This document shows positions 24,601 to 51,755 of a stretch of 64,000 nucleotides of DNA, one piece after another. The stretch's first letter is position 1, and the number at the start of each line of letters is the position of its first letter. The DNA comes from Hysterangium stoloniferum. Its lineage: Eukaryota; Basidiomycota; Agaricomycetes; Hysterangiales; Hysterangiaceae. Where the stretch lies: NCBI GenBank assembly GCA_015178975.1, contig WHVD01000068.1, positions 1 through 64,000 on the forward strand, read 5' to 3'. The position numbers and the translations under genes are program-made. Under the pieces are notes generated by a model. That model saw nothing but the letters and a program-made list of their open reading frames with translations. It searched no databases and had not been told where the DNA came from.

Positions 24601-25029
24601 ATACTCCAACGCGTGATTGTCTATCTCACCCTAAAACCTATCCATCGAAGCACTTCAACATTGATGGCATCTTCTAGTCAAAGTGTGTACCGGACTTCCT
24701 AGATATATAGAAATAACACTGATCCTCCCTTTACAGTAAATGCATGGAATCTCAAGCTGGACCGGTGGGGCGCAGAAATCTTCATTTATAATCGAGCTAG
24801 AAGGCATCGCCGCTATCTGGCACCTACGAATGCTAACTAGCACTACGAAATTTCATCCAGCCTATCTTAGCTATCGCAATACCCTACCTCAACGACATTA
24901 TCCACGGTCGCGTTGTTAAACATCCTAGCTAAACTCGCTAACTATTTTCCATTTCCCTGACACTTCTCAACAGAGCCTCCCTTATCTCCGGCTAAGAGAC
25001 CGGGTGTAGCCATGGACACTTGAGGATTG

Positions 25030-29400: not shown

Positions 29401-29491
29401 CATCCTGGAGAAACTCCCTCCAACTGGATAAGTCGTCCCCACTGTTTTTAATGCGCACTTGCCACCAATTGTTAGTTGATTGCTTGTTCAT
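26425..29491 (-). pseudogene. Large P-loop NTPase-family protein of basidiomycetes (Crinkler-like architecture), broken
   Basis: Read on the minus strand from Met at 29491. A first exon of about 125 residues is followed by IYAKAIAVVQSSGTGKSRML (about 28.85 kb), whose SSGTGKSR is a Walker A loop. Then come RQIFTLPICLRKADDPGYPP, a probable Walker B/DEAH-like YFDEAHESDLCFW near 28.2 kb, MWYVFMGTKS, PPYIALGFD, a long conserved stretch including FDPSWLSAAVVQVKFKAAGD and MRPLGIPRDLHQPLPYLALL (about 26.9 kb), and a C-terminal MQHMRPLDRL then HTAWMTEYI near 26.45 kb. This order matches a family of 700-900-residue proteins that is expanded in mushroom genomes. At least three introns are evident. The copy is broken, with several reading-frame interruptions, and is best treated as a fossil. 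Function of the family is not established; the nucleotide-binding loop is intact. Confidence 0.65.
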
Positions 29492-32063
29492 CTTCTTGTT
29501 GAGTATAGTCAGCTCATCCTGCGAAAGGGCAGTGAGGAAGGAGAGTCGACCTCTTTGTCCGCACAGTCACAGCAGTCACAGCAGTCGTGACTGTTAGGCT
29601 TCCTGGTTAGTCAGCATCGTTTATGATCGTGCGGCTGTGTGCGGCTGAGAATAAGTTGTCCTGACTTCACGCCTCCCTCACCTTCGTCTCGCCTTCACAT
29701 TCAACTTTTACCCTCATGTTTCAACTACCTTGTCTTTGCCTTTGCCTTTACTTTCACCTTCACCTTGACTGATCCTCGCCTTAACTTCATCGTCCCCCTT
29801 ATCGTCATGTTATCTCCACCCTCCCCCTCAGCTCCATTTCCACGCGGTAAAACTTCCGGATTGTTCAGCGAGTGAGTTGAAAGCGGACGTTTGTCTTGTG
29901 AGAAGTCAAGCTTTAAGTGAGGCGGTGGCATTATTACCTTTACATCAATGATATCAGAATGCACGTCTTCTAAGGGTATCTCCATGTCCAGTATGTTCAG
30001 TAATATCTTGTTACATAGTCTGCAGCAAAAGCCTACCCTCTTACAGCTGTTTTCCCCCTTAACGGCTCTCTATTACCTGATACAAATTTTATGGCTTATT
30101 TCGACGCCCCGCTTGTTCCGTGACATCCCTTCACTGTACTACATAATGCCCACTACACAGTATCGACGGAGAACAGCAACGAACATAATGGCAGGACGCT
30201 TTGCCCCTCTCCCCTTCATCTCATTGATCCAGTAGCCATAAATACCTTAGATTATTGGCTATCCTAGTCTAGGAGAAGAAGCAGTACATACAAGTATCAG
30301 AATGAAGTGGCTGGACACGTGAATTTGAGACCCTTCATCACGATGAACGGAGGTGAGAATATGTCGCTTTGGAGTAAATCTGGCGGGTCCAGATTGCTCC
30401 TTGTAAATCGCTCCTGGCCATACCTTGTCAGCAACATCACGTTCCAGGTTTCATGAAAAATGGAATAACCATGCAGGAAGAGCCTTATCAATAAGCGGAA
30501 GACTTGAACACGGCTCCAGCACCATTGAAATAATATTACAAACACCCCATGTCGACGGAATATCACGGAAAAAGCATTCTGTCGTCCAAAAAAAGCAGTT
30601 TCTTGCGATATCTATCAATCCGGGAATCGTAAATAGGGCTTTAGCGTTAAAAGTCCTAAGGTATTAGCGAGTGTTAGATGCCATTAGGATAGTTAGCCAT
30701 ACCGGCTGCAGCCAGCATATACCCCTCATCCTCTCTGCCAGCAATGATCCTTACAATTTCTTTATTTTATTTGTTACAGAGCACAGGGTGTTAGTGCTGA
30801 TTGATAACAGTTTCCGTGTACTTGATATTCAGTATTCTTGCACTTTCTACGACACTGCATCATACGACGGATGTCCTCGTATGTTATTTCACAGTGCTCA
30901 CTCTGCCCTGCCCTTCTCCTTGGGTAGCCCTCACATCGTGCATTATATTACTAGGAATTTACCTTCCACCATCACTCCTAAAAGCACACTCAACCTGTAA
31001 GAAATTCGAGATCGCCGCTGGCTGACCAAACTCGTCGTTGGTGACGCCTTCATCTTCGTTGCTTTCTCTCTGCAGTTGGAAGACTGCTCGTTGCAACAAG
31101 CATGGCTGGAAGTTATAGTGTATTTTGATGCATCGATAACCACCTCTCACACTTAAACATTATCCATGCCCCCACACAGTCCATACGGCGGCTGCCATGC
31201 AACCGAATCTCAGCCAGCGGTGCTGCTGCTTTAGCACTTCTGGTCAAGAACTACACCGGTTCTCTTTCAAGTATCACGACAGCGCCAACACTACCATCAC
31301 CATCATAGAACGTCTCTTACACATCTCTACAGCCATTCATCCTGCCGAGTCTCGGCGTAATGCTGGTGTCCGACTGGCCGCCGTAGGACCTTCTGCTACT
31401 GTGCCGCCATCAGCTCCAGCTACTGTTGCTCACACACATGCCAATTTTTCGTGATTTGTAGAAACATTGGCAGTAAAAGGACGGGGAGCCCCGATGCTGG
31501 ATAATCATGGTTTCGAACGGCGTCTGCAAGTCTTTGCGGATGCGATTGACCGTGGCAGAAAGAGAAACAACAAGGGGGGCGTAGAACTAGATTTAAGCGC
31601 GGATTTAGGCTCGAGAGAGAGGCTGGGTGAATGCATTGGAGTTCCTGGTGAGTCTCACACAGCCATATACCATGATACCACAAATTGAATGTTTATTGTC
31701 CTTGGAATATCATGCATAATGTAGACCTCTATAGAAGAACGCACGTCATGGCTGCAACACGTATATCCAACCCACACTGCTGGGCCACACGCCCCTGCTA
31801 TCCCTCCTCTCCCTCCTTGATCCCGCTGCGCCGTCTATGCTCTTCTGCGTGTCAAGGTACAGCGGAGTGGGCACCTGACGATGTTAGTGGGCTTTTGCTG
31901 CAGACTATGTAACAAGATATTACCAAACATACTGTACATGGAGATACACTTAGAAGATGTTCATTCCGATATGATTGAGATGAAGGTAATAATGCCCCCG
32001 CCTCACTGAAAGCTTAAATTTTCACGTGACAAACACCCACTTTCCACTCACTCTGAAGGCAGT

Positions 32064-32344
32064 TGTAAGGTTCGGCTTTGGAGATAGCGTAATCCTTCAG
32101 TTGAGCTCTTACAAAGAGGAACGCACAGTAGGAATAGGCTCCAATTCGAAAAAGACTACTCTAACTAGTGGAGGGTTCACCTATTTACTCTGGCAATCGT
32201 AAGCTACATCCTAACAACACCTAATAAGTCTGAAACCCTTTAATGATCGAAACTTCCGGTGTCTTCTCTTTACTCCTTACCATCTAAGACTAGGGCGGTT
32301 ACCCGCCCGATTCAAAGTCCGCCACCACGTCTGCTCCCGTTACA
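32064..32344. repeat. Solo LTR (281 bp) inside the modular repeat
   Basis: It starts TGTAAGGTTCGG and ends CTCCCGTTACA. The flanks GCAGT (32059-32063) and CCAGT (32345-32349) differ by one base. The uninterrupted state is visible at about 41615 (GGCAATACCTCC) and, inverted, at about 38875 (GGAGGTACTGCC), so this is an insertion into an existing module. Confidence 0.7.
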
Positions 32345-34251
32345 CCAGTACCTCCAAGGAAACTGCGCGGTCCTCGAAGGAATGCTGCTCTCAAAAGGGA
32401 TGGAAAGGATACTGACCTTAAACCCCCAAACCCGATTATGCTGGACAATCCGGAAGTTTTACTGCAAAGTGGAAATGGAGCCGAAGGGGAGGGTGGAGAT
32501 AACATGACGAGAAGGGCGACGATGAAGATAAGGTTGAAGGCGAGGATCAGTCAAAGTGAAAGTGAAAGTAAAGGCAAAGGCAGAGACAAGGTAGTTGAAG
32601 CATGAGGGTAACTTGAAAGCGAAGCTGAATGTGAACGTGAGACGAAGGTGAGGGAGGCGTGAAGACAAGACAACTTATAAGTTTTATGTGACTCCAACGT
32701 TACTGTGGCTAATCAAGTCAGCAACTATCGCGCTTCGTCCAGCTCAAAACTGTGGCGCCGTGCCTCGCGCTCGTGAGTGTGGTCCGTAAAGGCGTACGCG
32801 CGAATGCCCCCGCCAAACAATTCGGACGCTGTTTGTCCCCCTTATTACCTGATACAAATTTCATGGCTTATTTGATCGTCCCGCTGTTTCATGACATCGC
32901 TTCACTATGCTACATAATGCCCACCAAACAATACCGTCGAAGAACAGCAACAAAATTAATGGCAGGTTGCTTTGACCACCCCCCCCCCCCTTCACATAAT
33001 TGATCCAGTAGTCATCAATACCTCTAAATCATTGTCTGCCCCAGCCAGGATAAGGGATTTCCAATGGGGAAATGTGTGGCAGCAAAAAGGCAAAGGTGGT
33101 GAAATCGGAAGTTAGACAAGCTGTTTATGTGGTGGGTGAGTCTGGAAGTGAAAATGAGAATTGGGCACAGGATATATTGATGGCTACTGGATCAATGAGA
33201 TGAAGGGGAGAGGGTGACCCTTGATGTGTATTGCTGTTCTTTGTCCATACTGTTTAGTGGGGGTTATGTAGCGCAGGGAAGGGATGTCATGGAACGGTGG
33301 GACGGTTGGATGGGCCATAAAATCTGGATATAGAGAGTTGGTAAGGGGGCAAACGGCTGGAAGAGAGTAAGCTTTTGCTGCAGACTTTGTAACAAGATAT
33401 TACCGACTGTACCGGCGATGGAGATACATGTAGCAGATGCGCATTCCAGCTTTTGGGAAGTATAATATATGGAGGTTATACCCGTCTATATTCTATACTT
33501 TAACCTCATGATATGATATTCATATGGCATTGATCCCATAAACTGGCACGATTCGGGTCCAGGACTCAAAGCACATTGTTGAGAGGAGATGGACTTCGAC
33601 CTCACCCGAGAATGACCGTCGCAAATGTGCAGAGGTGCTCTATCGCATGTACACATATAAACAAGAAGAACAATAGAATCCTAAATGGAGAGACAATGGG
33701 AAGGTGAAACAATAGGACAAAGAGGGGGAACAAAAGGATATGAGCTTGTTTGATGCTCGAAATACAACACATTGAAGTCCGCAGCGATAATGAGAGGAAA
33801 GGAGATGATGCAGTACATACAAGGATCAGAATAAAGTGGCCGGACACGTGAATTTGAGGCCCTGCGTCACGATGAACGGAGATGAGAATATCTCGCCTTA
33901 AAGGAGTAAATCTGGCAGGTCCAGATTGCTCATTATAATTCGCTCCTTGCCATACCTTGTCAGCGACATCACGTTCCAGGTTTTGTGAAAAAGGGAATAA
34001 CCATGCAGGAGGTGTCTCATCAATAAGCGGAAGACTTGAACACGGCTCCAGCACATATTACAAACACCCATGCCGACGGGAATACCACGGAAAAGCATTC
34101 TGTCGTCCAAAGGAAACAGTTTCTTGCGATATCTATCAATCTAGCAATCGTGAATAGTGATTTGGCGTTAAAAGTAGTAGATGATTTCCTGAGGTATTGG
34201 CGAGTGTTAGATGCCATTAGGATAATTGACCATACCGGCTGCGGTCAGCTT

Positions 34252-34775
34252 TGGTGAACTCACGCTGTAATTGGCTTTCAGGAACCAAAATATGGGGAAA
34301 CCAATGCAGTCTTAACGTGAATAGGATCGATTAAATCATGAGAGGTGCCGCAGTGCCAAGATGAATAAGTCATACGGTGAGATCAGTGTTGCCCTTAATC
34401 TTAGGATTCACAGCCCGCATGATACCCCATTGTAGAGGTACTTTTGGATTTGCCTTGCAAAAGCTCTCGGATAGGTTCCTGATATAATAGTATACGAGCG
34501 TCAGTATGTGAGAAAGAGAGCAGAAGGTGTGCAATGGATTTGTTTGCACGACAGGACACAGCTTTGCAGATTGATATGCCTCATCCAGCTCGAAGCTTGG
34601 AGCACGATTCGAGTCAACAGTAGTGGAAAAGGTTTTCTCATAATGATTTATGTGCCAATAAAAACGACAAACAAGAAATATATTAATTCCACATCAGTGA
34701 GAACACAAATGCACACTAATCAGCAAAGGCATGAGTCCAGGACTTGCTTTCTTTCAGTTCTTTTCTCTCCACGTG
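34252..34775. other. Unclassified ~525-bp insertion in the modular repeat
   Basis: The copy at 39.74 kb reads without interruption from CGGCTGCAGCCAGC into ATATACC, whereas here about 525 bp intervene between the same words. The insert has no TG...CA ends, no clear inverted repeats and no target duplication that I could find. A 130-codon frame (34508-34900) crosses its right edge and is not convincing. Confidence 0.5.
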
Positions 34776-35238
34776 AATATACCCCCCTCATCCTCGCCGC
34801 CAGTGACGGTCCTCACAATTTCTTTATTCTATTTGTAATAGAGTACAGGCTTACTCAAAGGAGCTTTTCGGCCCCAATTTCCTTATTCTCACTGAAGTAA
34901 GTTCTTTCTCAGGTACTCGTATGAGCTGATGAGCATAAAACTCAACATCGGCAGCTTGGTGTGGTTTCTATGACAAGTGGGGTTTCTCAGGCGAGACGAA
35001 GTGGGAAAATAGACTGAGGACAACATATGATTTAGCGAGTAGGGATTTGGAAGAATGAAAGAAGAGTAAGTGAAGAATGGGAAGAATGGAAAAAGAAAAA
35101 GACTGTCAGACATTGCGAAGCAAATGTTACAAAAGAGAATAAACTAAGGTTAGAAAACTCGGGAGATATTATCGCACGTGTTGGTGCTGATCGATAACAG
35201 TTTCAGTGTACTTGGACACTGCATCACGTGACGGATCA

Positions 35239-36063
35239 TTTTTTTTTTTTGATATATTTGTATCCCGCTTCAAGTAACAAGGACTAACTGCGGCCAGGGG
35301 CATGGTGTCCCCACTAAACTATGCTACGGAATTACGAAGTGCCGAGTGAGCTACATGGGTATGAGGGATTTTGGTGGGAGGGAAGCAGTCTGGGTTTTCG
35401 GTGTGAGGTGGGAAGTGGGGTTGTAGGCACAAAAAGAAAGAGACACAAGAGGATAATACAAGCATGCGAAGGGGATATAAGTACACGAAGGAAATACAAA
35501 TAGCTAGAAGGAGACTTTTCTGTGTCCAGGAGATAGGAGGTGTAGGTCAAGCGGGAGGTCCGGTAGGGGGCCTCTAGGGTGGGTCGTGAGTCTGTGTGGT
35601 TTCAGGCGTGCCGGGTTGGGTCGAAATGGGGTTCTGAGGTCTGTTAGGCTGTTTCGCAAAGGCAGCAGTTTGGCAAATGAACTTAGAAACCGCCCTGAGC
35701 CCCGACTTCGTGCCCAAGAGGAAGGCTAGGTCGAGTCCACGCGAGACCTTGCGCAGGAGGGAGCGGTGTCCTTCAAAGAGGGAGCAGCTGGTGAGGATGT
35801 GTTCGCGCGTCTGGAGAGGAGCAGAGCCACATGGGCAGGCAGTGGAGAGGTTGGGAAGAAAGCGAGAGTAGTACTCCCCAAGGAAGCCATGCCCGGTGAT
35901 TGCTTGGATGAGGCGGGTGTGTTGTGCTCGGGAGCCGGGGAAGTCCTTGTGGATGGGAGATAGTTTGAGCGATGGCGGGCCAGTGAGGACCAGAGCTGAG
36001 GCATTCGAGTGCGGTTTGGCGGCCCAATCCCTGCCCCATTCTCTAACTGAGCGGACTTTGGCC
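35239..36063 (-). mobile_element. 5'-truncated LINE (Tad1/I-like), target duplication of about 11 bp
   Basis: On the plus strand the element starts with 12 T (its poly-A tail) and GATATATTTGTATCCCGC. On the minus strand it encodes the end of a LINE reverse-transcriptase protein: ITGHGFLGEYYSRFLPN, then the zinc-knuckle-like CPCGSAPLQTREHILTSC and a C-terminal tail ending TQTHDPP near 35.58 kb. The zinc-knuckle phrase matches the C-terminal Cys/His region of fungal Tad-like elements. GTGACGGATCA (35228-35238) and GTGACAGATCA (36064-36074) flank it, a 10-of-11 target duplication typical of target-primed reverse transcription. The remaining coding part (about 160 codons, 36.06-35.58 kb) appears open; everything upstream of it was lost to 5' truncation. 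It lies inside module M4/M5 of the modular repeat. The same 3' tail recurs at 62374-62900. Confidence 0.85.
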
Positions 36064-37488
36064 GTGACAGATCAGTCATCTCGTCCTTGCTTCCGTATGT
36101 ACTGCTAGATTCTGGTCAGTGCTCACTCTGCCCTGCTCTTCTCCTTGGGTAGCCCTCTCATCGAATGGGAGCTGCTCACGTTCATCACTTGTTGGTTCGT
36201 TAGTCAGCACTTTGCATTATCTGTCCGTTTATGCTTCTCACATCGTCCATTATATTACTAGGAATTTACCTTCCACCATCACTCCTAAGAGCACGCTCAA
36301 CCTGCACGCAATCCGAGATCGTGGCGGGTCATAATCACGTCGTCCGTGATGCCTTCATCTTCGTTGCTTTCTCTCTGCTGTTGGAAGACTGCTCATTGCA
36401 ACAAGCATGGCTGGAAGTTTGAGGTGTGTTTTGATGCATCGATAACCATCTCTCACGCTTAAACATCATCCATACCCCACGCAGTCCGTACAGCACCCTT
36501 ACGCAACATATCGTTGCTATACAACCGAATCTCAGCTAGCCGCGCTGTCGCTTTGGCACTTGTGATCAGAAACTACACCAATTCTCTTTCAAGTATCACG
36601 ACAGCGCCCAGACTACCATTAGCATCATGGACCGTCTCCCACACATCTACATAGGCTTTCGTCCCACAGCCCGTGCCCAGCTGCCCCTTGTAAGACCTTG
36701 TGTGACTGCACAGGCATCAGCTCCAGCTGCTTTTGCTCACACACCCACCGATTCTTCGCCATTTGTAGACACATTGCCGGTAAAAGGACGGGGAGCCTGA
36801 TGCTGGATAATCGCGGTTTCGAACGGCATCTGCAAGTCTTTGCGGATGCGATGGACCGTGGCGGAAAGAGAAACGACAAAGGGGGCATGGAACTAGATTT
36901 AAATACGGATTTAGTTCAAGAGAGAGGCTGGGTGGATGTATTGGGGTTCCTGGTGAGTCTCGCGCAGCCATATACCATCATACCACAAATTGAACGCATT
37001 TTTTTTGTCCTTGGAATATCATGCATAATGTAGACCTTTATGGCCGAACGCATCTCATGGCTGCAACACGCATATCAAACCCACACTACTATGCCACCTC
37101 TTCCCAGCCACACCGCTGCTATCCCTCCTCTCCCTGCTTGAGCCCCCTTCACCGTCTATGGTATTCTGCGCGTCAAGGTACAACGGAGTGAGCAAGCGAG
37201 GACGTGGTCAAAGTTACGTCCGAATTGTTTGGGGGTGGCATTCGCGTGTACGGACCACATCCACGAGCGCGATGCACGGCACCACAGTTTTGAGCTGGAC
37301 GAAGCGTGTCATTTGCTGTCTCGATTAGCCATAGCAACGTTGGAGTCACATAAAACTCATAAGTTGTCCTGTCTTGACGCCTTCACCTTCACCTTCACCT
37401 TCGACTTCGACTCGCCTAGTACTTTGACTACCCTGTCTTTGCTTCTACCCTTGCCTTTACTTTCACTTTCACGTTTGGCTGACCCTCA

Positions 37489-37622
37489 TCGATTTTTTCG
37501 CAGATTTAGATCCACTTGATTTTCGCGGCCCCGACGTTTTCGTATACTTTTCACGTTTGAAAAGTGACTCGCACTCCGTCTTACTCCTCATCACCAATCC
37601 GTTCACTGGTCATTCGGTCCTA
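37489..37622 (+). pseudogene. Displaced 134-bp fragment of the A/B/C gene's fifth exon
   Basis: The stretch from TCGATTTTTTCGCAGATTTA to CATTCGGTCCTA aligns with the fifth exon of copies A-C (for example about 13032-13170), sharing the run CTTTTCACGTTTGAAAAGTG and CGTTCACTGGT. It sits immediately after a partial M1 module and before about 340 bp of AT-rich unique DNA, 15-29 kb away from the nearest full copies. Two copies of CCTAAATAGGAAGGTAA (37619 and 37650) adjoin its right end. It is a non-functional scrap, probably carried or inserted during rearrangement of the repeat. Confidence 0.85.
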
Positions 37623-40600
37623 AATAGGAAGGTAAACTGCGCGACACTTCCTAAATAGGAAGGTAACTGCTGTGACATACAAAGTTTTGGTGTAAACCTA
37701 AACCCCATGTCATTTACGAGTTACATTCTGTTATTTCAGACTTTAGTAAGTTTATTTGAGCATTGATATTACTCAAGGAAGGACTAAAACTAAGGATATG
37801 GCAATTAAAGTGGTGCACAAGGTATTTTTCACCAGGAAACTGTACACTAGATGTAACAGTTCTCATGTTTTGATAATCTAATGTCAAATATAATTTTATT
37901 TTGGTAATTTACGATATAAAATTCATCAAGTATCTGCTTAATTTGCAAAAAGAAACATGTCGCGGCACTTGCGCGACAACCCTGCGCGACTGCACAGCCA
38001 TCAGCTCCAGTTGCTTTTTCTCACGCACTTGCCGATTTTTCGCGATTTGTAGAAACATTGTCGGGAAAAGAACGGGGAGGCCGATGCTGGATAATCGCGG
38101 TTCTGAACGGCGTCTGCAATTCTTTGTGGATGCGATTGACCGTGGCGGAAAGAGAAACGACAAGGGGGGCATGGAAGTAGATTTAAGTACGGATTTAGGT
38201 TCAAGAGAGAGGCTGGGTGGATGTATTGGCTTCCTGGTGAGTCTCCCTCAGCCATGTAACATTATACCACAAATTGAGCATACCTTTTATGTTCTTGGAA
38301 TATCATGCAAATTGTAGAGCCCTATGGAGGAACGCACCTCATGGCTGCAACACCTTGATCCCACTTCACCGTCAATGGTACTCTGTGTATCAAGGAACAG
38401 CAGAGTAGGCACCTGACAATGTCGATAAAGTTGCGTCTGAATTGTTCGGCGGCGGCATTAGCGCGTACGCCTTTACGGACCACATTCACGAGCACGAGGC
38501 ACGACGCCACAGTTTTGAGCTGGACGAAGGGTGACAGTTGCTGACTCGATTAGCCATGGTAACGTTGGAGTTACATAAAACTTCTAAGTTGTTCTGTCTC
38601 CACGCCTCCCTCACCTAACACCCTCATGCTTCAACTACCTTGTCTCTGCCTTTGCCTTTACTTTCACTTTCACTTTGACTGATCCTCGCCTTCAACTTAT
38701 CTTCATTGTCGCCCTTCTCGTCATGTTATCTCCACCCTCCCCTTTGGCACCATTTCCACGCGGTAAAACTTCTGGATTGTCCAGCATAATAGGTTTTGGG
38801 GTTTTAAGTTCGGCATCCTTTCCATCCCTTTTTGAGAGCAGCATTCCTTCGAGGACCGCGCAGTTTCCTTGGAGGTACTGCCTTTGGAGTGAATGGAAAG
38901 TGGATGTTTGTCACGTGAAAATTTAAGCATTAAGTGAGGCGGTGGCATTATTCCCTTCACACCAATGATATCAGAATGCACGTCTTCTAAGGGTATCTCC
39001 ATGTACGGTACATTCAGTAATATCTTGTTACATAGTCTGCAGCAAAAGCCTACCCCCTTACAGCTGTTTGCCCACTTCCCAGCTCTCTATTACCCGATAC
39101 GAATTTCATGGCCCATCTCGCCGTCCTGCTGTTCCATGACATCCCTTCCCTGTACTACATGATGCTCACTCCACAGTATCGACGAAGAACAGCGACAAAT
39201 ATCATGGCTGGGTGCTTTGCCACTCTCCCCTTCATCTCATTGATCCAGTAGCCATAAATACTTTTAAATTATTGGCTATCCCCGCCTAGGAGACGAAGCA
39301 GTATATACAAGTATCAGAATCAAGTGGCCGGACACATGAATTTGAGGCCCTTCGTCACGATGAACGGAGATGAGAATATGTTGCCTTGGAGTAAATCTCG
39401 TGGGTCCAGATTGCTCATTATAAATCGCCCCTTACCATACCTTGTCAGTGACATCATGTTCCAGGTTTCGTGAAAAAGGGAATAACCATGCAGGAGGAGT
39501 CTCGTCAATAAACGGAAGACTTGAACACGGCTCCAGCACCATTGAATTAATATTACAAACACCCACGTCGACGGGAATACCAAGGAAAAGGGATTCTGTC
39601 GTCCAAAGGAAGCGGTTTCTTGCAATATCTCAATCCGGGAATTGTAAATAGGGATTTGGCATTAAAAGTAGTGGATGCTCTCCTGAGGTATTGGAAAGTG
39701 TTAGATGCCATTAGGATAGTTGACCATACCGGCTGCAGCCAGCATATACCTACCCCTCATCCTCTCTGCCAGTGATGATCCCCACAATTTCTTTATTCTA
39801 TTTGTTACAGAGTACAGGCTTACTAAAAGGAGCTTTTAGACCCTAATTTGCTTATTCTCACTGAAGTAGGTTCTTTCTCAGGTGCTTTGACTCGCTGATG
39901 AGCATAAGACTCAACATTGGCAGCTTGGTGTATCAAGGATTTGGGAATGTTCTCACACTTAAACATCATCCATGCTCCATGCAGTCCATACAGCAGCTGC
40001 CATGCAACCGAATTTCAGCCAGCAGTGCTGCTGCTTTAGCACTCGTGGTCAAGAACTACACTGATTCTTTTTCAAGTATCAGGACAGCACCAAGACTACC
40101 ACCAGCATCATGGAGCTTCTCCCATACATCTCTATCCCACTGTGATCCTGCTCTCTGCCATCAATTCTATGCCAGTCTGCCATCCCGCCTTAAGGGATGA
40201 AGTCTCTGAAGGAGAAGATGGCAAGCCAAAAACACTGTCCCATATGCACCTCAAGGCTCAAAATGCAGATACACACTATTGGGGGTGTCGCAGGAAGTTG
40301 CCTGTGAGACCTCCATGTGCTAATTTGTGTTATTCCTTTCCTTGTGATTGCTAAATTCCAGGTTTCTTGATTTTGACAGTTGTGAGACTAACTCATCAGT
40401 CTGTTACCTTCCCGCCTTCACTCACATGTACCCCCACTTGATTTTGATATTTGTATGTACTGCTTCATCCCCTTTCCTCTCATTTTCATTGCAGACTTCA
40501 ATGTGTTGTATTTAGAGCATCAAACAAGCTCATATCCTTTTGTTCCCTCCCCTCTTTGTCCCATTGTTTCACCTTCCCATTGTCTCCATTTAGGATCCTA

Positions 40601-41711
40601 TTGTTCTTCTTGTTTATATACATAGCTACATGCAAATAGAGCACCCCTGCACATTTGCGATGGTCATACTTGGGTGAGGTTGAAGTCCATCTCCTCTCAA
40701 CAGGGTGCTTTGAGTCCTGGACCTGAATCATGCCAGTTTGTGGGGTCAATGCCATACTGTATGAATGTCATATCATGAGGTTAAAATATAAAATATAGAC
40801 AGGCATAACCTCTGTATACTATACTTCCCAAAAGCTGGAATGCACACCATATATCTCCAGCAAAAGCCGACTCTCTTCCAGCTGTTTGCCCCCTTACTGG
40901 CTCTCTATATTGAAATGTTATGGCCCATCCAACTGTCCTGCTGTTCCATGACATCCCTTCCCTGTGCTACATAATCCCCACTAAACAGTATGGACAAAGA
41001 ACAGCAATACACATCAAGGGTCACCCTCTCCTCTTCATCTCATTGATCCAGCAGCCATTAATATATCCTGTGCTCAATTCTCATTTTCACTTCCAGACTC
41101 ACCCACCATATAAACAGCTTGTCTAACTTCTGATTTCACCACCTTTGCTTTTTCACTGCCACACACTTCCCCATCGGAAATCACATCCCTTATCTCTTGG
41201 GCTGGGGCAGACAATAATTTAGAGGTATTGATGACTACTGGATCAATTACAGTATGTGAAGGGGGGTGGGGGTGTCAAAACAGCCTGCCATTAATTTGGT
41301 TGCTGTTCTCCATTGATGCTGTTTGGTAGACATTATGTAGTACAGTGAAGGGATGTCATGGAACAGAGGGATGATCATTAAGCTATAAAATTTGTATCAG
41401 ATAATAGAGAGCCAGTAAGGGGGCAAACAGCTGTAAGAGGGTGGGCTTTTGCTGCAGACTATGTAACAAGATATTACTGAACATACTGTACATGGAGATA
41501 CACTTAGAAGATGTTCATTCCAATATGATTGAGATGAAGGTAATAATGCCCCTGCCTCACTGAAAGCTTAAATTTTCATGTGACAAACACCCACTTTCCA
41601 CTCACTCTGAAGGCAATACCTCCAAGGAAACTGCATGGTCCTCCAAGGCATGCTGACCTTAAATCCCCAACCTGATTATGCTGGACAATCTGGAAGTTTT
41701 ACTGCAGAGTG

Positions 41712-41983
41712 TGTTAAATTTGATGATGAAACACACCTTTTTATAGGGGGAGTCCACCAATTATTGCAACTTTTCATATGAAGATGCTAATTGTGGACCA
41801 TGCATTTGGAGGTTAATGTGTGTCAGAACCACTATACACCTCCCAGAGCATCCAACCTATATTGTCAGGAGGTGCTACACTAACTGACACAAGATATTGA
41901 GACACAAAGTACTTTTATTACAAGCTTATTAAACCCTTGTATATTGTGTATTGCAATAGAGTCAACTCATACTATTTTTAATA
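41712..41983. repeat. Solo LTR (272 bp), CpG-free, target duplication GAGTG
   Basis: It starts TGTTAAATTTGATG and ends CTATTTTTAATA, flanked by GAGTG at 41707-41711 and 41984-41988. The sister module at 32.47 kb reads uninterrupted (ACTGCAAAGTGGAAATGG). The final TAATA may once have been TAACA. Not a single CG remains, so its insertion preceded the CpG loss of this domain. Confidence 0.75.
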
Positions 41984-43365
41984 GAGTGGAAATGGAGCCA
42001 AAGGGGAGGGTGGAGGTAACATGACAATAAGGGTAATGATGAAGATAAGTTGAAGGTGAGGATCAGTCAAAGTGAAAGTGAAAGTAAAGGCAAAGGCAGA
42101 GACAAGGTAGTTGAGGGTAACCTGAAGGTGAAGTTGAATGTGAAGGTGAGATGAAGGTGAGGGAGGGGTGAAGACAGGACAACTTCTGAGTTTTATGTGA
42201 CTCCAATGTCACTATAGCTAATTGAGTCAGCAACTATCACACTTTGTCCAGCTCCAAACTGTGGCACCATGCCTTGCACTTGTGAATGTGGTCCATAAAG
42301 GCCCATGTGTGAATGCCACTGCCAAACAATTTGGATGTAACTTTGTCAATACCTCCACCTAGCCTCTCTCTCGAACCTAAATCTGCACTTAAATCTTATT
42401 CCATGCCCCTTGTCATTTCTCTTTCCCCCACAGTCAATCACATCTGCAAAGACTTGCAAATGCCATTTGAACCACCATTATCCAGCATTGGTCTTCCTGT
42501 TCATTGACCAGTCATGTTTTTGCAAAAAATCAGCAAGTGCACGAGCAAAAGCAGTTGGAGATGATGCCTGCACAGTCACACAAGGTTTTATGGCATACAG
42601 CTGAACAGCAGAATCTGCAGCAGTAGCATTACACTGAGACTTAAGGGTAACAGGGTGGTGGGCTGTGGGATGAAAGCCCATGGAAATGTGTGGGAGACAG
42701 TCCATGATGCTAATGGTAGTCTGGGTGCTGTCATGATACTTGAAAGAGAATTGATGTAGTTTTTTATCACAGGCACCAAAGCAACAGTGCAGCTGGCTGA
42801 GATTCAGTTGTATGGCAGCAATAAGTTGTGGGTGCTGTACAGACTGTGTAGGGTATGGATGATGCTTAAGTGTGAGAGATGGTTATTGATGCATCATAAC
42901 ACACCTAAAACTTCCAGCCATCCTTGTTGCAAATGAGCAGTTGTCCAACCACAGAGAGAAAGCAGCAAAGATGAAGGTGTCATGAACAACAAGGTGATTA
43001 TGAAGGATGTTTGGGTAGCCCATGGCAATCTCAGATTTCTTGCAGGTTGAGTGTGCTCTTAAGAGTGATGGTGGATGGTAAATCATAAATGGAGAGATAA
43101 TGCAACATGCTGACTAATGAACTACCAAGTGATGAGTGTGAATAGCTCCCATTTGATAAGAGGGCTGTAATACCCAAGGAGAAGGGCAGGGCAGAGTGGC
43201 TCTGACAAAATAACATACCAGCATACCAGGACAAAGGACGTGATCTGTCACATGATGCAGTATTTTATTTTATTTTATTAATACATTTGTATACCAATCA
43301 CATAACATAGATACATACATAGCAGTTGGGGGCAGGTACCCTAATGGTAGGTGGATAGGTATGTA

Positions 43366-43465
43366 CAGTGGCTTCCAAAACTGTCCCAATGTTTTGGTAA
43401 TTCTCAATAAATGCCTACCAAATAAATTTTCTAAAATAGTGAAAATATTCTCACATATACCTTAG
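43366..43465. mobile_element. MITE-like end, possibly mariner-type, truncated by an LTR
   Basis: CAGTGGCTTCCAAAACTGTC followed by CCAATGTTTTGGTAATT resembles the left end of the MITE at 62081 (CAGTGACTTACAAAACGTATCCAATGTTTTGTAG, split here for comparison only). It is preceded by TA. No matching right end is found because an LTR starts at 43471. Confidence 0.4.
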
Positions 43466-43470
43466 CATGC

Positions 43471-44310
43471 TGTTAAGGAGTGCATGGAGCTTATCAAGGG
43501 GTTTCCAGAGAAACCCATGGAGGCCAGTAGGACTTGGCTTCAGCTTATAGGCTGCACTCTTGTGAGATTGTAGTGTCCAATTTCAGACAGGGGGATGGGA
43601 ATCCCAGGGAGTCCAGGGAGTAGTTTGTGGTTGAGTCCACAGAGATTGGGGGGTCAGGTGGTGATGGGTTGGAGGTTGAGTGATAGATAGGTGAGAGGTT
43701 GAATAATAGATGGGTTCAGAGCCCATAGGCTCTGATGAGGGAATTAGCAGTGAGGATTAGAGTGGGAATGTACTGAGATTACTGGGGGAAATCTAAGTTG
43801 ATTTTCTGACTGGATTGTATGTACAACATCTGCCAGACTATATAGACTGTGGAATGTATGTTATACCAAATCCAGTAATAATGAAATCCAAACTAGTATT
43901 CATGAAATGAGATAAGTAAACACCAAATTGGGTGTTAGGAGCGGGACAGAATGGGGACAGAGTCTGAAATGTGACAGGTCATTTGACCATAATGGGAATG
44001 GGGCAGGAGCAGAGTCTGAAGTGTGACAGGTCATTTGACCATAATGGGAATGGGGCTCAGTGAGAGAGCTGATGGGCTTTCCAAGTGGAGTCCGGTGACT
44101 GATACATGAAACAGGGTTGGAGATAGACAGGTACAACATGCACAGGTACTGTATTCCAGTGACTGATTCTTGAAACAATGAAGGTCAGACAAGGGCAGGT
44201 TTGATGTCCAGGTCCTGGTGGGTATTCCAGTTAACCAATAACTGGTGCATGTAGGGTGCAGGTGCATACAGGGTAGTGCCTGGAGTCTGGTGGGTTTTCT
44301 GGTCATAACA
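43471..44310 (-). repeat. LTR (840 bp), inverted CpG-poor relative of the 3372-4200 LTR
   Basis: On the plus strand it starts TGTTAAGGAGTGC and ends GGTCATAACA. Read in reverse it follows the LTR at 3372-4200 from end to end, including the AAGCTGAAGCCAAGTCC box (43530-43560). Most differences replace CG by CA or TG. Flanking pentamers CATGC and GTTTG do not match, so no target duplication survives or the ends belong to a rearranged element. Confidence 0.75.
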
Positions 44311-44729
44311 GTTTGTCTCTGAAGTGCACTTTTTCCAGCACTTACAAAATGCAAGGTTTCTCTCAAGATAGTCCACTTTAAACCACAGTAAATTGTGGGA
44401 ATATATCATAATACATGGGCTGCATTGTAAGACCAAAATTTACATGCTACAGTATGACACAGTCCCTGTAGTCCTTGATTATAACATCGTTATGCTTCTC
44501 CCGACCAGGCTATGCAATATTAAGAGCAATGAAGTTTTGAGAACCTATATACAACCCCATAAAAATAATCTAAGTACTTGATTTCCCTCATTTCCATGAA
44601 TCATATGCCTCCTACCACTCTGTCTTGGACAATATACAAACCATGATAGAGGAATGTGGAGCTTTGTGAAGATCTGTTCCCAAAAAGTCCTTGAAGCATT
44701 TTCTAGGCATATTATCAGTTTCCAAACCA
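44311..44729. other. No recognised gene; CpG-poor spacer
   Basis: Sequence between two LTR remnants, poor in CpG, with only short frames. No motif was recognised. Confidence 0.35.
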
Positions 44730-45365
44730 TATTCTGGACTAATGTTCAGATACAGAATTCACTGGAACCCAAACCCCATCCAGCAAGTACCTTTCAACTC
44801 AAGCTCCCAGTTGGAAATTCTGCCCTCAACTAGATGCCTTATCTTATGTCCCAGAAACTGTCAGACTCTGCCCCTTCACAGCTCACTTCTCCAAGTGTCC
44901 TTGGTCATTTTCCAACCTGGACTCTGGTTGGACTGCTGCATGTTCTTTTAGATACTTTAGTAATCTGCAAGTCAGACCCCTTGAATACATTTGCTTGTTT
45001 ATTGTTACTGCACTTATTTCCTGATCTGTCCTGGTCCTCATTTACCTAACTTGTTATTATGTGCTTATTTTGGAAACATTTCCAAATATGTTTTATTATA
45101 CTCTCGATTTGTAGTTCAATTATTGAAACAGCTATATAGTCTTCCATAGTCATGTACTGACTCTCCAGTTTGAATTTCAAATCAGTCCCAACTTAGTCTA
45201 ATTTACTCCTTTAGTCTGTCTGTACACTTGATATCTAGAACTCCTTGGAACTCCAGTTATTTACACCTCTCATGTAAACATCTGTCAACTTGAAATAAGG
45301 AGGCACAGCACATGAGCTAAAGTCAATTCCTTCTTGTACCCTGGTAATATTTCAATACTGTTAGA
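44730..45365 (+). repeat. LTR remnant, CpG-poor relative of the 62981-63863 LTR
   Basis: From about 44980 onward it aligns with the reverse complement of the LTR at 62981-63863: shared GCTTGTTTATTGTT, ATATAGTCTTCCATAG and the box near 45301-45330 (CACAGCACATGAGCTAAAG). The 3' end is cut short at about 45365. Nearly all CpG have been replaced. Confidence 0.65.
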
Positions 45366-45868
45366 ATGAAAAAGATGGAAGGGCATTGGGGCACAAAATA
45401 GTGACCACAGTGGACAAATAGACCACATCAGGAAAGTGGGAAGATCAGTAAGTATGCCATTCTATATTGTCAAGAGCCATCTAGGAGAGCTACCTAGCTC
45501 AGTTAGACATGGCTAGACACACTACTTTCACAAGATCCCTATTTACTAGTTGGTATAAAAGCTTACTATAGATCTAGGGAGTCTGGGGAGGCTAGGGAGT
45601 CTACATAATGGGTGTAGACATTCCCAGATCCCTGATGCACCACTCAGACATGGACACATACTGATCCCAGAAGTAACTGAACTCAGATGACTACATGTTG
45701 GACAGAGTCACAGACATGGATAGAGGCTATTATGGATACATGTGGGTACTGAGCATTCCAAATATTCCAACAGAAATATCTTAAAAGGCAGCAGACCACA
45801 CCCCTGTTCAACAATGCCGTTTCCTATGCGCTCATGACCGAGGCGTGATTGGGGATGACAGTGCATAT
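45366..45868. other. No recognised gene; right edge of the CpG-poor domain
   Basis: CpG-poor to about 45815, then CG dinucleotides return abruptly in CAATGCCGTTTCCTATGCGC. Possibly the leader of the element whose LTR remnant lies to the left. The 3' untranslated region of the minus-strand DUF6533 gene probably occupies the last part. Confidence 0.4.
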
Positions 45869-47322
45869 TCATCTGACAAAGTCTGAAGTTGAGATCTGTT
45901 TCAGCCAAGTATAGAAATTAGAAGATCGTTTGAGTGGGGGTGTCATTACCATCTGTGCAGTAAAGTTCGGGTTCTGAAACCACGTGTCGACGCCTAATAT
46001 GACACTGCTAAAGATTGTACGGCCACGGTCGGTAGTGGTCACGAGATCAGAACTTTTGTAATTATCACGCGCCGCTTTTCGGAGATTGACTAAAATCCGT
46101 GCAGTCAATATTACATGGAAGTCGCGCTGTGTACTGTAGTAGCAATGAGACTGAAGTTCGAATGACGCAGAAACCGAAAGAGATGCACGGACAGTATGAG
46201 GCTGGGCGAGGGCTTGGACTAGGTAAAGTGAAACTTAGAGTATGTAGGCTGTAGGAGTATTTGTGGCATACGTTAATGACCAAAAGAATGATGTTAATAA
46301 TTGATATGCCTTCCCAGTGGTAAGGTTACAACATGATCGTCAAGTCTTTGGCATATCTACGCACCGATGAGGTATACATAGTACATTACACCTTTCCCCG
46401 CAAGAAAAATCAGGTGGCGTCTTACAGGTTAGCTGAAAAACATACCGTCTTGATATAGTGTAACAATTAGACGGGATCTCCTTATTCTGACTGCGAGGAA
46501 GTCCCGGAGAGATTTTAAATGTGTTGTTGACGTGTGCCAAGACCAGGCAGTACTCACGGTGTTGAAGGCACTTGAGGATGGTCAGTACTAAGATGACTAA
46601 AAAGAGTAAATAAGGAGGCGAATACTGTCATCAACAGAATGGCAAATACTTGTTTCAAATATTACAACCACTATGTAGTCGAGAAATATTATGTTGCCAG
46701 CAGGCGTTACCATCCAGCAAACGTAGTCTACACCGCTTGGACTTGGTCCGACTGCATGGCTCGCAATGGTAAGATATTTGAATCACGCTGATCGAAGAAT
46801 GAGCGGTTTACATGTGGTGGACGAGAGACCGTGGTAGACGAAATACCCAGTCGGACACGCCATTAAAAGTGCTGCAAAAAGGAGCGATATCATTACTTTG
46901 CTATTTTTCCCCCAAACAGCCCAGGTTCTGAAGACCAGAACAACTGCCAGATGTCGATTTATTTGGCTGAAACTCGGGTTCTGAAAAGGCACAGTGGACC
47001 AAATGAGATCAATCTCTTCCCCTAAGTTCAGAAAGTGGTCGTACAACTGCGTCCCACACGCATTAGCCTCGATCTAAATTTATGTTTGAGTATTCTTAAC
47101 GCACCAATAAGGTGTAGGCGGCTACTATGAAACGGTTAGTATGGACAGATCAATGATTGACAAATGGTAGAGCATGCATACTATTAGAATACTGAAAGTT
47201 AATCCAGTTAATCCGTACATAACTGAACCTGTAGGACATTGAGGGCTTACCGCTTGAGCACGGTGGTTCTCTAAAAGGGCCTGAATGTTGATGGTGTGGG
47301 ATGAAGACATCATGTCATGCAC
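45869..47322 (-). CDS. DUF6533-family multi-pass membrane protein
   Basis: On the minus strand the first exon starts MHDMMSSSHTINIQALLENH (47322). An exon supplying VAAYTLL lies near 47.12 kb, then YDHFLNLGEEIDLIWS (about 47.04 kb), the diagnostic DUF6533 signature. After it come HLAVVLVFRTWAVWGKN and the membrane helix VMISLLFAALLMACPTGYFV. A further helix LVILVLTILKCL is near 46.58 kb, followed by SLRDFLAVRIRRSRL and, across an intron at about 46.44 kb, VMYYVYLIG. The last exon carries ARILVNLRKAARDNYKSSD and ends at 45869. Order and spacing match the family; I see about six or seven exons, but not every junction was fixed. No stop interrupts the recognised exons, so it may be functional. 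CpG content is normal, in contrast to the repeat domain that starts at its 3' side. It lies between that domain and an LTR fragment at 47349. Confidence 0.6.
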
Positions 47323-47348
47323 TGGTGTGGCTAAAAGTTAGATGAAAT

Positions 47349-47751
47349 TGTTGGAATAGTATATATACTAGACAGTTAGATAGCAGAAACCAATCTCAGT
47401 GTTTGCACGCAGTAGCGGGGCTAAACAGCTATATATTTACCTAGATAGCAGAACCCAATCTAGGATACATGATCAGTATTGTATCTAAGTAAGCGTGTAA
47501 AGGTAATCTCACCTCACTATTTGCACGCAGTAGCAAGGCTAAACAGCTGAGGTGCACTAGCTATAGTCCATAAGCTTTTAAGGCATTGGCGTTCTATCTA
47601 TGATCGTGCGTTGTGAATGCTACGGAGTCAAACAGGAAGTAACTAAATAGAGGCATGTATATTATATCGTGTGTACCTGCCTAGCTCGGTACCTTAAGTT
47701 AGGCTTTGAATATACCAGGAGCGGGACTATATCGCGCTTGCTAATCCAACA
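47349..47751 (-). repeat. Truncated inverted copy of the 23401-24223 LTR
   Basis: It shares GTTTGCACGCAGTAGCGGGG and CTAAACAGCT with the reverse complement of the LTR at 23.4-24.2 kb and follows it to GCTTGCTAATCCAACA. It lacks both ends and has fewer internal repeat units. It sits 27 bp upstream of the start of the minus-strand DUF6533 gene and could influence its promoter. Confidence 0.75.
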
Positions 47752-48320
47752 GAAATGGTAGTGAAGGAATACATCAGCAATGGTGAAGAAACCCGTCTTT
47801 AGTAGACTGGATCTGTAAGTTTCGGGACCACAGCCTACAGGGGTTGCTTAATGTATCATAGAAACGTCTCCAGTAAGATAAAGGAAGATCAAAGGAATTG
47901 TATATATGCCGAAATTGAGCACTATCATGATCATGATCTTCGATCAATCTGTAGTGTTGATTTGTAATGTGCGTTATAAATGCATTTGAATTCATAGGCA
48001 CACTAATAGTGATAATGCATCGTGCCGGAGTTTGAAATTTTGTATGGATGTGGTTAGGATGTCGGAAAAATCCGAAAATCCTGATCAGGCCTGTCGGCCT
48101 GGCTAGATGCCGACCTACCCGATGCCAGCTGCTCAGCTCCTGAACAGGCGTCAAGCCAGCTGATGTGTCTGGTGCAAGCATCAGGCCGGCGGTACTCGGC
48201 ACACAGCCCGGCTCCCTGCCATAGGGCCGGCCATGCAGCCCGCCAACATGCAGCCTGATCAAGGCCTAGGATCTGCACAGACGCTCTGTGTGTAGGTAAG
48301 TAAGCTTTAGGCACTCTCAA
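47752..48320. other. No recognised gene; GC-rich patch with inverted words
   Basis: A GC-rich patch (48075-48260) opens with GATCAGGCCTGTCGGCCTGG and closes with CAGCCTGATCAAGGCC. These are imperfect inverted words and might be ends of a small non-autonomous DNA transposon of about 180 bp. Minus-strand frames of 88 and 162 codons cross it but have no known motif. Confidence 0.3.
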
Positions 48321-48339
48321 AACCTATTTAGTGACATAC

Positions 48340-48475
48340 TGTGGGTGGAGGGTGGCAGTGGTGGAGGGTGGGAGCGGGTGGATCCCGGTGAAGGTGGCGG
48401 TGGGAATAGTGGGAATGATGGCAGGAATAATGGTAACGGGTGGTGGTGGGTGATGGTGGTGGTTGGCGGTGGAAT
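48340..48475. repeat. GGTGG-rich low-complexity tract
   Basis: Irregular repeats of GGTGG, GGAGGGTGG and GGTGATGG on the plus strand. Proline/threonine-rich reading on the minus strand is a consequence of composition. Confidence 0.7.
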
Positions 48476-48789
48476 AAGAGCATGGTAGAAGTGCCAAGTG
48501 GCCTGCTTTGCAGTGCATTAGTGGATGATATTCAGTGTGTTTACTATTTTAATGAACTGGTTTGAAGAGTAATATGAACTGAAATTACATGCAAAGATAC
48601 AGAAAAAGTGACATCTGTCCTACTTAGATTCAGTGTCTTAATGTTTTGAATGCATCATCCAACAACCACTTGACAGCTTAAATGAGTGTTTGAACTTAGA
48701 TGAAGTGCCTAGAGGGCTTCATTTAAGTCCACTAACTTCCTATAGGGGCTATAGGAAAATGCTGTGCAGGGTGTTGCACTGCCATGCAA

Positions 48790-49330
48790 CACTGGAGGCA
48801 CCCCAAGATTTTTGGAGTCAGAAAACCTTCAGAAAAGTACTATTTGGCCAAATTTTCTAAGCATTCTTTGAACTGAAAAACTGTCGGAAAATCTTGAGTT
48901 TTAGTAGGTTTTTCTGAGGACAAAAATGGTATCTGAATACCCTAAAAATGTTGATCAGGAAATTCCAAGGAAACATTGTTGGAAATAGCCTATTTTCTGT
49001 GGATTTTCTAAATAGGAAAACTCTTAAAAAACCCTGGATTTTGTTACAGTTTTCCACCCAAGAAAATTCTATGAAAACTGTAATAATTTGCCTAGAGAAA
49101 TCAATTGAAAACCACATATTTCTACTCAATTTTTCCCCTCAGGGAATTGAGTGAAAACTGTAATTTTTTGCCAGGAAAATCTTGTGCCAAGAGAAAGTTT
49201 TCTTAATGTTTTGTCAAGGGGAAAACTATGATGAAATTTACATTTTAATTATATGTGAAATCATTGAATAATTATATATTTCAATAAGATTTTCCTTGGT
49301 GACAAACACTATGGAAATTCGAAAAATGTG
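48790..49330. repeat. Degenerate AT-rich repeat block related to 26186-26330
   Basis: The left part (48790-48970) parallels 26186-26330. The rest consists of recurring words such as GAAAACTGTAAT, AGGAAAATC and GATTTTC in both orientations, as in a decayed tandem or inverted array. It is poor in CpG. No coding content; flanks 48476-48789 and 49331-49920 also show no gene. Confidence 0.5.
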
Positions 49331-49920
49331 CTTGTGAAATCTGGAAGAAATTAACAATTTCAGAGACCAAGGGTAAGTGAGTGCAAGCAGAGGCAGAGAG
49401 CAGAATACTTAGAGTGAGACTATGAGAGTTGTTTAGGAGTGTTCTGAGTTGATATTCTGATTGTCTTAATACTACAATACATGAGCAGCATATACATGGA
49501 AAACTGGCACTTATCCAAATGTAAACAGAACAAAGGAAAGTACTAATGGAAAAGACAGAACTACATATAGAGTGATGCAAAAATGGAGACTGATAGATGG
49601 AACATTACAAATATGGACATAGACTACTATGGGGGCAGAAAAGGTGTAAACTGGTTGTATGGGATTAGGGGCCAATGGGAATACTAATCAGGAACAATGA
49701 AGGTGCTTAATGGGGTTAGTTGGGACACTGACAGTTTTGTGAGCAATTGCAGTTTTGTGTGAGGTCCAATCAGGGCTGATGGTGTGCCAAGCGCATGGGT
49801 TGTAACAGTATCCCCCCTTATAGCTGAAGTCCCATGGAGGCTGAGAAATGAAGATGTACATGCCAAGTGAATTAACTGATGTGTCAACAAATCAGAAGAT
49901 CTGGTGGTCCTGAAGAAACC

Positions 49921-49930
49921 TTATATAAGG
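49921..49930 (+). promoter_or_regulatory. TATA-like box upstream of the coiled-coil gene
   Basis: TTATATAAGG lies 39 bp before the ATG at 49969, a suitable place for a core promoter. Inference from position only. Confidence 0.4.
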
Positions 49931-50422
49931 TCACCAGGGCATCTTTTGTCTTTTAACCTTTATCCACCATGTCATCTAACAACAGGACAACCTCTAGCCT
50001 CTTGGGACCCGTCAGTATGCTGAGTCTGAATAACTTGTGACCCCAAGTACAGGAAAGGGAGGCATGCCATTTGCGAGAAGAGGAGGAGGTGAGGAAGGAC
50101 ACCAAGTTGCTGGTGGCTGCTGAGAGGGCCAAGGAGGAGCGAAAAAAGAGAGAGGAGTGGAAAAAAGCAGAGGAGGCAGAGTGTTGGAGGGTTGTGAGGT
50201 ATCAGCTTTATCTCATAATTTTCTCTTAATTTTCTTTGAATTCTTTAATATTTTATCGAATTTATTGTATTTTTATTATATTTTTATTGTGAAATATAAG
50301 GCTCTATTCCTTTTAACTTCGCATAATAATAGCATATATGAACTCATATTATGCTATTATATCTTAGTTAATTCATTATAATTTTTAATTAATTATTTAT
50401 ATTTTATTTACTTAGTTATTAC

Positions 50423-51653
50423 TGTCCGGCACATTACTTGCTTGTATGTGTGCATTCGGGCGTCACATGACTACAGTCACACGAGTGACTGTAACCCTAG
50501 TCACGCGAGTGACTGTAACACTAGTCACGGGTGACTGTAACACTAGTCACGGGTGACTGTAACACTAGTCACGGGTGACTGTAACACTAGTCACGGGTGA
50601 CTGTAACACTAGTCACGGGTGACTGTAACACTAGTCACGGGTGACTGTAACACTAGTCACACGAGTGACTGTCACATAAGTCACGGTCCGGTATCGGGAT
50701 GTCACACAGGTCACGAATGTGACTACCCGAGTCATTATTTGATCCCGCCGACTCATCGTTTGCTTCCGTCCCCGGGACCGCGGCCTTGAACCTTCATGTT
50801 CAAGCCAAAGCTTAGAACCCTTGTCTCAGAGAGGGGAATCATGTGATAAATACAGGGTAAATAATGAGTAGAATATGAGGTCATTATGATCTAATTGGTG
50901 ACCTCATAAACTAAATAATTAGCTAATCATTTAGTTATCAAAATGTATATAAGGAGGGCCAACTTTCCAATAAAATCATCTATCTCACACATATTTTACA
51001 GTACAGCACAGAAGCTTACCTCATCATCCTAAGGACAATAATAGCCTTAGTCTGATACACTCACTGCAAGCACCTACACTTGCAGCATCTTGAATCTTTG
51101 TCAGCAACTCTTGGACTTAGCTAATCATCTAAGTTCCTCAGCCTCACAGCTACCCTTTAGGCTTATTAATTAGATAATAAACCTAATAAGTATCTAAGTA
51201 TCCTTACTGAAATCCCTGCCAATACTAGATTATTCAAGGCCCAGCCCTAAGTTTATTGAATTAATCAAGTACAAGCACTCAGATAATCCAATACATATTA
51301 TTTTCTCTATTAATAAATTATTTAACACCTTGTTAAATAACTATTAATAGTTACAAATAAGCATACAAGAATCCGAAGCTCTTATATCAAGTCTCTGCCA
51401 AGTTACTGCGCATATATTCAGCTTCCAGCCCCTATTCTCAAGGAATAGTTCTTTTATTTGCTAAAAGAGTCATACACAGTTCTATTGAACCTTTCAATAA
51501 TCAAAATAAGCATTGATTTGAGTTGTTTAAGCTTCATAGTGCAGCTCATTAATCTATCAGTATTTAAATTACTGGACCTTTGCTTGTTTTGTTGTTGAAG
51601 CTCTGTGACACTATAGCATATACTGAGCTATCTAAGAGAATCCCCTGAATACA
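50423..51653 (+). repeat. Probable solo LTR (about 1.23 kb) in intron 1, target duplication TTAC
   Basis: It starts TGTCCGGCAC and ends CCTGAATACA; TTAC precedes (50419-50422) and follows (51654-51657). A TATA-like TGTATATAAGG near 50944 gives the plus orientation. The left part contains the 22-bp array below. The internal body is AT-rich and non-coding. Boundaries rest on a 4-bp duplication only, so they are less certain than the others here. Confidence 0.5.
50475..50695. repeat. 22-bp minisatellite of hairpin-forming units
   Basis: About eight units built on GTGACTGTAACACTAGTCAC, six of them in exact 22-bp register (starts at about 50531, 50553, 50575, 50597, 50619 and 50641). Each junction AGTCACGGGTGACT is a near-perfect palindrome. 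Outer units carry ACGAGT or GCGAGT variants, the usual sign of central homogenisation. Confidence 0.9.
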
Positions 51654-51755
51654 TTACAAGGGTGTTGGTTGCCACACTTGTGAAGGTGAAGCAAGAGAAG
51701 GCTGAGGCTGAGGCGAGGAAGGTAGGTGTTCCCAGAAACTGAAAATGCTGAGTGC

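Follow-up and report, generated by a model that had tools for sequence, protein, structure and literature searches.

A CpG-depleted repeat domain beside CpG-rich sister copies in Hysterangium stoloniferum is consistent with long-term cytosine methylation and deamination

The first 64,000 nucleotides of contig WHVD01000068.1 of the basidiomycete Hysterangium stoloniferum (assembly GCA_015178975.1; here called the window) contain a domain of about 6 kb in which CpG is nearly abolished, next to sister copies of the same repeat modules that keep it. We consider it probable, from comparison of the copies, that this domain is repeat DNA that was CpG methylated over long evolutionary time and carries the scar of deamination of 5-methylcytosine (5mC). 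A two-state model assigns positions 39637 to 45818 to the depleted (LOW) state. They hold 18 CG where base composition (GC 0.42) predicts 277.7, an observed/expected (o/e) ratio of about 0.06; the initial annotation, which had placed the domain at 39800 to 45815, is borne out. Chance or GC-matched composition is ruled out as the cause, as 1,000 mononucleotide shuffles of the domain gave a mean of 277.6 CG and a minimum of 236. Nowhere else in the window are two neighboring CGs as far apart as at 41175 and 42372, a gap that matches the CG-free run from 41221 to about 42360 described earlier. CG stands to TG plus CA as 18:1070 in the domain and as 492:1662 in the CpG-rich sister modules at 28000 to 39600 (492 CG in 11601 bp), in line with the CpG-rich modules previously noted at 31.9 to 32.8 kb, and the motif pair quoted from about 32727 and 42235 was located at 32726 and 42235.

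The loss is specific to CpG and consists of C-to-T changes. Depleted module DNA occupies 40422 to 41703 and 41985 to 43206 (both plus strand); the segment 40422 to 41406 is the inverted sister of the CpG-rich 32843 to 33851, and the nearest of five CpG-rich copies compared to 41985 to 42347, at 32468 to 32828, differs from it by 4.7% at non-CpG columns. Among 23 LOW-versus-HIGH (CpG-rich) BLAST pairs of 100 bp or more within the window, 21 of them from the domain and the pairs overlapping rather than independent, the 300 CG of the sister copies correspond in the LOW copy to TG (138), CA (107), TA (4), CG (5), or something else (46). TG and CA outcomes are about equal, so loss is seen on both strands. 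Other sites were not accelerated: non-CpG transitions and transversions stood at 0.079 and 0.048 in LOW-HIGH pairs versus 0.067 and 0.047 in 18 HIGH-HIGH pairs. No C-to-T excess occurs at CpA, where sister CpA became TpA at 0.110 and the reverse at 0.117, which rules out CpA-type repeat-induced point mutation (RIP). Ancestral CpG sites were inferred without double counting, wherever two or more references were available and most of them had CG; the references are CpG-rich by choice, which biases the inference towards calling CG ancestral. At 40500 to 43300, LOW kept 1 of 91 such sites, compared with 0.61 for GC and 0.70 to 0.84 for the ten other dinucleotides tabulated, so that the possibility raised by the initial annotation that CpG sites change no faster than others was not what we found. 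Over 39000 to 43300, left flank included, 116 of 135 inferred sites have changed, 102 of them to TG (54) or CA (48). The window's CpG-rich modules keep 181 of 282 sites relative to three outside copies, and the contrast with 1 of 91 gives a Fisher p of ~6e-31 with sites treated as independent. Leave-one-out retention of single HIGH copies ran from 1/6, 19/33, and 19/34 up to 25/26 and 5/5 and was highest in the mutually close copies L041, L043, and L044. The module parts of these three loci are CpG-rich, those of L037, L042, and L048 are intermediate, and the closest outside match to 40422 to 41607 (88% alike) is also intermediate (7 CG versus 15.0). None of 10 open reading frame (ORF) pieces at 27.2 to 46.6 kb, among 70 pieces of at least 75 amino acids listed, has a Pfam match over cut-off, and on the strength of these 10 pieces we treated the modules, as a working assumption, as noncoding or decayed.

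Both edges of the domain fall inside DNA that aligns as a single stretch to a relative. The left edge is fairly sharp: CpG o/e in 500-bp bins is 0.66 at 39.0 to 39.5 kb, 0.46 at 39.5 to 40.0 kb, and 0.00 to 0.20 from 40.0 to 45.5 kb, and inferred ancestral CpGs are retained at 7/12 (39000 to 39400) and 9/13 (39400 to 39700), then at 1/8, 1/11, and 1/91. It lies within a module that aligns unbroken (86.5%) to 29870 to 30787; another module copy, however, has a break near 39743. The right edge is sharp, as had been claimed for a stop near 45815, with a CG at 45105 and the next ones at 45818, 45829, 45839, and 45844; o/e rises from 0.37 in the bin that holds the edge to 1.07 at 46.0 to 46.5 kb. 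The flank at 45818 to 48468 is CpG-normal (104 CG versus 132.1 expected) and holds the DUF6533 match reported beside this edge (PF20151, 46783 to 47073, minus strand, 25.9 bits against a cut-off of 24.1). The edge is contained in a stretch, 44370 to 46993 (plus strand), that has a segmental duplicate at C520:327676-330330 (95.8%) and another, in pieces, at C70:96157-100305 (98.0% alike over 45481 to 46993). At a resolution of 250-bp bins, both duplicates drop to low CpG at the position matching 45818. In the C520 alignment, the LOW part has 0 shared CG, 2 only in the window, and 6 only in the copy, versus 51 shared CG in the HIGH part. Where the LOW parts carry TG or CA, the window agrees with C520 at 204 sites and disagrees at 1, and with C70 the counts are 210 and 1. 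Because independent losses would often pick opposite strands, the CpG loss in 44370 to 45818 is, on these alignments, older than the duplications, whether it took place here or elsewhere. So few CpGs remain there that gains after duplication are indistinguishable from losses.

The same state recurs elsewhere in the genome. L056 (C520:75627-78772) holds two module copies in tandem, with retention of 5 of 78 CpGs in the left one (75.6 to 77 kb), 44 of 62 in the right one (p ~3e-16), and 3 of 16 in the short stretch between them. Twenty samples of 1.5 kb, taken at round coordinates on large contigs of the 111-Mb genome rather than drawn at random, comprised 8 with every bin below 0.4, 9 with every bin at 0.68 or above, and 3 that were mixed or intermediate. 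Of their 60 bins, 25 fell below 0.4, 0 at 0.4 to 0.5, and 35 at 0.5 or above, a two-peaked distribution. Since 8 of the 20 share it, the state of the domain is no local oddity but one common among the samples of this genome. The initial annotation's proposal of a regional process acting on CpG, and not the age of one element, stands insofar as the loss is CpG-specific, affects both strands, and has its edges inside aligned DNA; it needs amending in that the state is common and that age also counts, as described below.

In the mechanism that we favor, methylated C would deaminate to T and become fixed as TpG or CpA, and newly arisen CpGs would be lost likewise, leaving CpG far under expectation. 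The sister modules at 28 to 39.6 kb would lie in DNA without persistent methylation and so would have kept most of their CpGs. DNMT1-like maintenance enzymes and DNMT5 would be the likely writers, and chromatin of the transposable element (TE) type may set the domain edges. Methylated repeat chromatin with 5mC deamination has been reported for Basidiomycota (review, PMC13297926), 98.7% of 5mC in Ganoderma sinense is at CpG and is higher in TEs (PMC4457147), and TE silencing has been tied to species with methylation (PMC4905642). Such a process would be an ordinary one, unusually clear at this domain.

Genes for such enzymes are present. A six-frame profile search of the genome, in which exons may escape, returned PF00145 matches at three loci (five exon matches). 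L065 is a DNMT5, with methylase and SNF2 domains and, as best solved relative, the 7r76 chain (6.2e-97 and 6.6e-79), named Rad8, which we take to be Cryptococcus DNMT5; the SNF2 part of DNMT5 has been linked to Rad8 (PMC13297926). L066 and L067 each combine BAH matches (E, 2.6e-6 to 0.003) with methylase pieces and are DNMT1-like; all 26 matches of one L066 piece are DNMT1 chains. An SRA match over cut-off lies at C519:421193 (E, 3.8e-8). By domain context, none of the three loci recognized in that search is RID-like. DNMT5, two DNMT1-like loci, and SRA fit the set reported for Agaricomycotina (PMC13297926), and the genome would encode CpG methyltransferases, a specificity that we take from published work. 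CpG-only signatures are reported to go with Masc2-type DNMT1 (PMC4352252).

The initial annotation's statement that loss covers modules, long terminal repeats (LTRs), and unclassified DNA alike needs qualifying, as three parts of the domain have histories of their own: 41704 to 41985, 43471 to 44310, and 44370 to 45818. The first of these (plus strand) is a high-copy element of about 280 bp; a first look gave 1007 candidates, and the 40 that were scored yielded 48 matches. Fourteen near-identical copies were read: 13 lack CG altogether, and the remaining one (L006) has 1 CG, where 8 to 10 are expected per copy, and an older relative (79%) has 1 versus 8.8. Of 8 copies with long flanks, 3 sit in DNA with o/e of at least 0.75 on both sides, 2 (L007 and L008) have such DNA on one side, and 3 are in CpG-poor DNA. 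Given the 13 copies without CG, about 280 bp of the 1.1-kb CG-free run probably arrived CpG-free, and no loss in place is needed there; the element is possibly a mobile one that evades methylation by having no CpG. A 4-bp target duplication was seen by eye in five copies (L003 to L007). The second, 43471 to 44310 (plus strand), is an old solo-LTR-like element (TGTTA...TAACA) with 2 CG versus 38.4 and no matching target duplication beside it. All 17 fetched relatives, ranked by likeness to this depleted query, are depleted (3 to 13 CG versus about 40). Two other members of the family have perfect 5-bp target duplications and full CpG: a solo LTR at 3372 to 4200 (plus strand), with TATAG on both sides and 41 CG versus 44.6, whose flanks are CpG-poor (6/36.9 and 8/65.1), and one at L069:3169-3985, with ATGAT, 48 CG versus 47.2, and flanks of 1/33.7 and 1/24.1. 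The latter has no counterpart at the equivalent position of either the window or the C520 copy, which fits later insertion. New DNA can apparently enter stripped regions with its CpGs kept, as these two LTRs in CpG-poor DNA suggest, and because they stay CpG-full there, time counts as well as place in CpG loss.

Several observations weigh against methylation and deamination as we propose them. The two CpG-full LTRs must be recent or unmethylated. Some "CpG-rich" copies are themselves partly depleted: W38 kept 1/6 (set C), and W31 and W36 kept 19/33 and 19/34 (set B). No RFD domain was found in the three N-terminal methylase pieces scanned, and the BAH matches fall below the Pfam cut-off. The loss also looks fast. 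In multiple alignments of three stretches, LOW kept 0/24 (set A), 1/35 (set B), and 0/7 (set C) CpGs, and over a LOW branch of 0.031 to 0.059 non-CpG substitutions per site in set A, the 0/24 (95% upper bound on retention, 0.117) translates, for each unit of non-CpG divergence, into at least 36 to 69 losses per CpG (18 to 35 per C). A rate at least ~18 to 35 times that of the average site per C sits badly with slow deamination alone and exceeds the rough tenfold of mammals. It is conceivable, though on balance unlikely, that loss ran far faster than ordinary 5mC deamination; CpG methylation in the repeat chromatin would then be linked to a mutator, active or repair-blocked, that has sharp edges. 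Finally, the authors of the Ganoderma report call the same kind of signal, CpG-biased transitions, RIP (PMC4457147).

A RIP-like mutator with a CpG preference, aimed at duplicated DNA and acting in bursts, would suit the near-complete loss over so short a branch, and RIP-like CpG hypermutation has been described in Rhizoctonia (PMC4014442). We nonetheless regard it as improbable. RIP would be expected to strike long duplicated copies alike, and CpG-rich multicopy relatives exist: sister modules 80 to 87% alike over 0.9 to 1 kb are spared; the three copies of a 2.2-kb family (6450 to 8610, 11268 to 13416, and 19990 to 22194), 83 to 86% alike, have near-normal CpG; the CpG-full LTRs belong to a many-copy family; and a CpG-normal LTR-retrotransposon-like element at 54882 to 59792 (292-bp terminal repeats, 95.9% alike) adjoins an 88% relative. 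Partly depleted copies also exist, as in the adjoining relatives of that element at 51756 to 54883 (64 CG versus 110.4) and 59793 to 61545 (41 versus 72.0). There is no CpA signal, although CpA is the second choice in Ganoderma (PMC4457147), and the three methylase loci are DNMT5 or carry BAH pieces, a domain reported in class II enzymes only and not in RID/Masc1 (PMC4352252). With many multicopy relatives spared, methylation plus deamination is the better fit of the two processes named in the initial annotation, ahead of homology-triggered RIP. A single uniform CpG decay across the genome, in which the depleted pieces are simply older, is very unlikely. The LTR family might form an age series, with the two members that have intact target duplications CpG-full and 43471 to 44310 depleted, and in all three sets the distances of LOW to L041, L043, and L044 (0.063 to 0.118) exceed the mean distances of these copies to other CpG-rich ones (0.036 to 0.077). 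Pure age is disfavored, however, by the similar non-CpG substitution levels and by the set distances. The distances of LOW to the window's CpG-rich copies roughly equal those of the same copies to the rest in sets A and B (0.047/0.052, 0.059/0.061, 0.140/0.121, and 0.116/0.126); in set C they are larger (0.105 versus 0.083 and 0.123 versus 0.078), as holds there for all five copies. Within set A, LOW is 4.7% from its nearest copy, W32, at non-CpG columns and kept 0/24, whereas W32 kept 18/21. The domain edges inside singly aligned DNA also speak against age. An origin as a mosaic of elements already poor in CpG on arrival, with no loss in place, is likely for 41704 to 41985 and possible for 43471 to 44310, and 44370 to 45818 was depleted before copying, here or elsewhere; as an account of the whole domain it is scarcely credible, since the module DNA has CpG-rich sisters and the left edge falls mid-module.

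Long-term methylation with deamination, as we propose it, resembles the CpG-methylated transposon compartments of Basidiomycota such as Ganoderma sinense in the CpG C-to-T repeat signature and in the pairing of DNMT1-type enzymes with DNMT5 (PMC4457147; PMC13297926). Compared with what is described for G. sinense (PMC4457147), the H. stoloniferum domain, known from sequence alone, lacks a CpA component, is almost totally depleted, and belongs to an array whose sister copies differ. With Neurospora-type RIP it shares C-to-T transitions concentrated in repeats but differs in targeting CpG rather than CpA, in the many duplicated relatives spared, and in that no RID-type enzyme was recognized among the three methylase loci. 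Rhizoctonia solani AG8, also an Agaricomycete, has a similar CpG-to-TpG bias that is commoner near repeats, but genes and repeats are hit alike in the account given (PMC4014442), whereas here loss ends at 45818, and CpG is normal on the side of the DUF6533 match. The window offers a natural experiment, in which modules of one family with similar non-CpG divergence are either stripped or not and CpG-full insertions lie in stripped DNA. Such module sets carry an internal control and would show how fast a fungal repeat compartment loses CpG; in Agaricomycetes, this would tell passive deamination apart from a RIP-like mutator.

The two-state model marks five further LOW segments in the window, at 2442 to 3377, 4194 to 6093, 25002 to 25648, 48468 to 50257, and 50782 to 51786; the fourth, to the right of the DUF6533 match, has 6 CG versus 63.7. 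The ORF pieces 6933 to 7709, 11078 to 11761, and 20287 to 20871, in or beside the 2.2-kb copies, have no Pfam match over cut-off. A short tandem array at 50480 to 50686 has a CG every ~22 bp. The stretch at 1501 to 2500 is GC-rich (0.61 to 0.64) with full CpG and CpG-poorer DNA on either side, and long minus-strand ORFs are located there at 828 to 2255 and 1640 to 2509.

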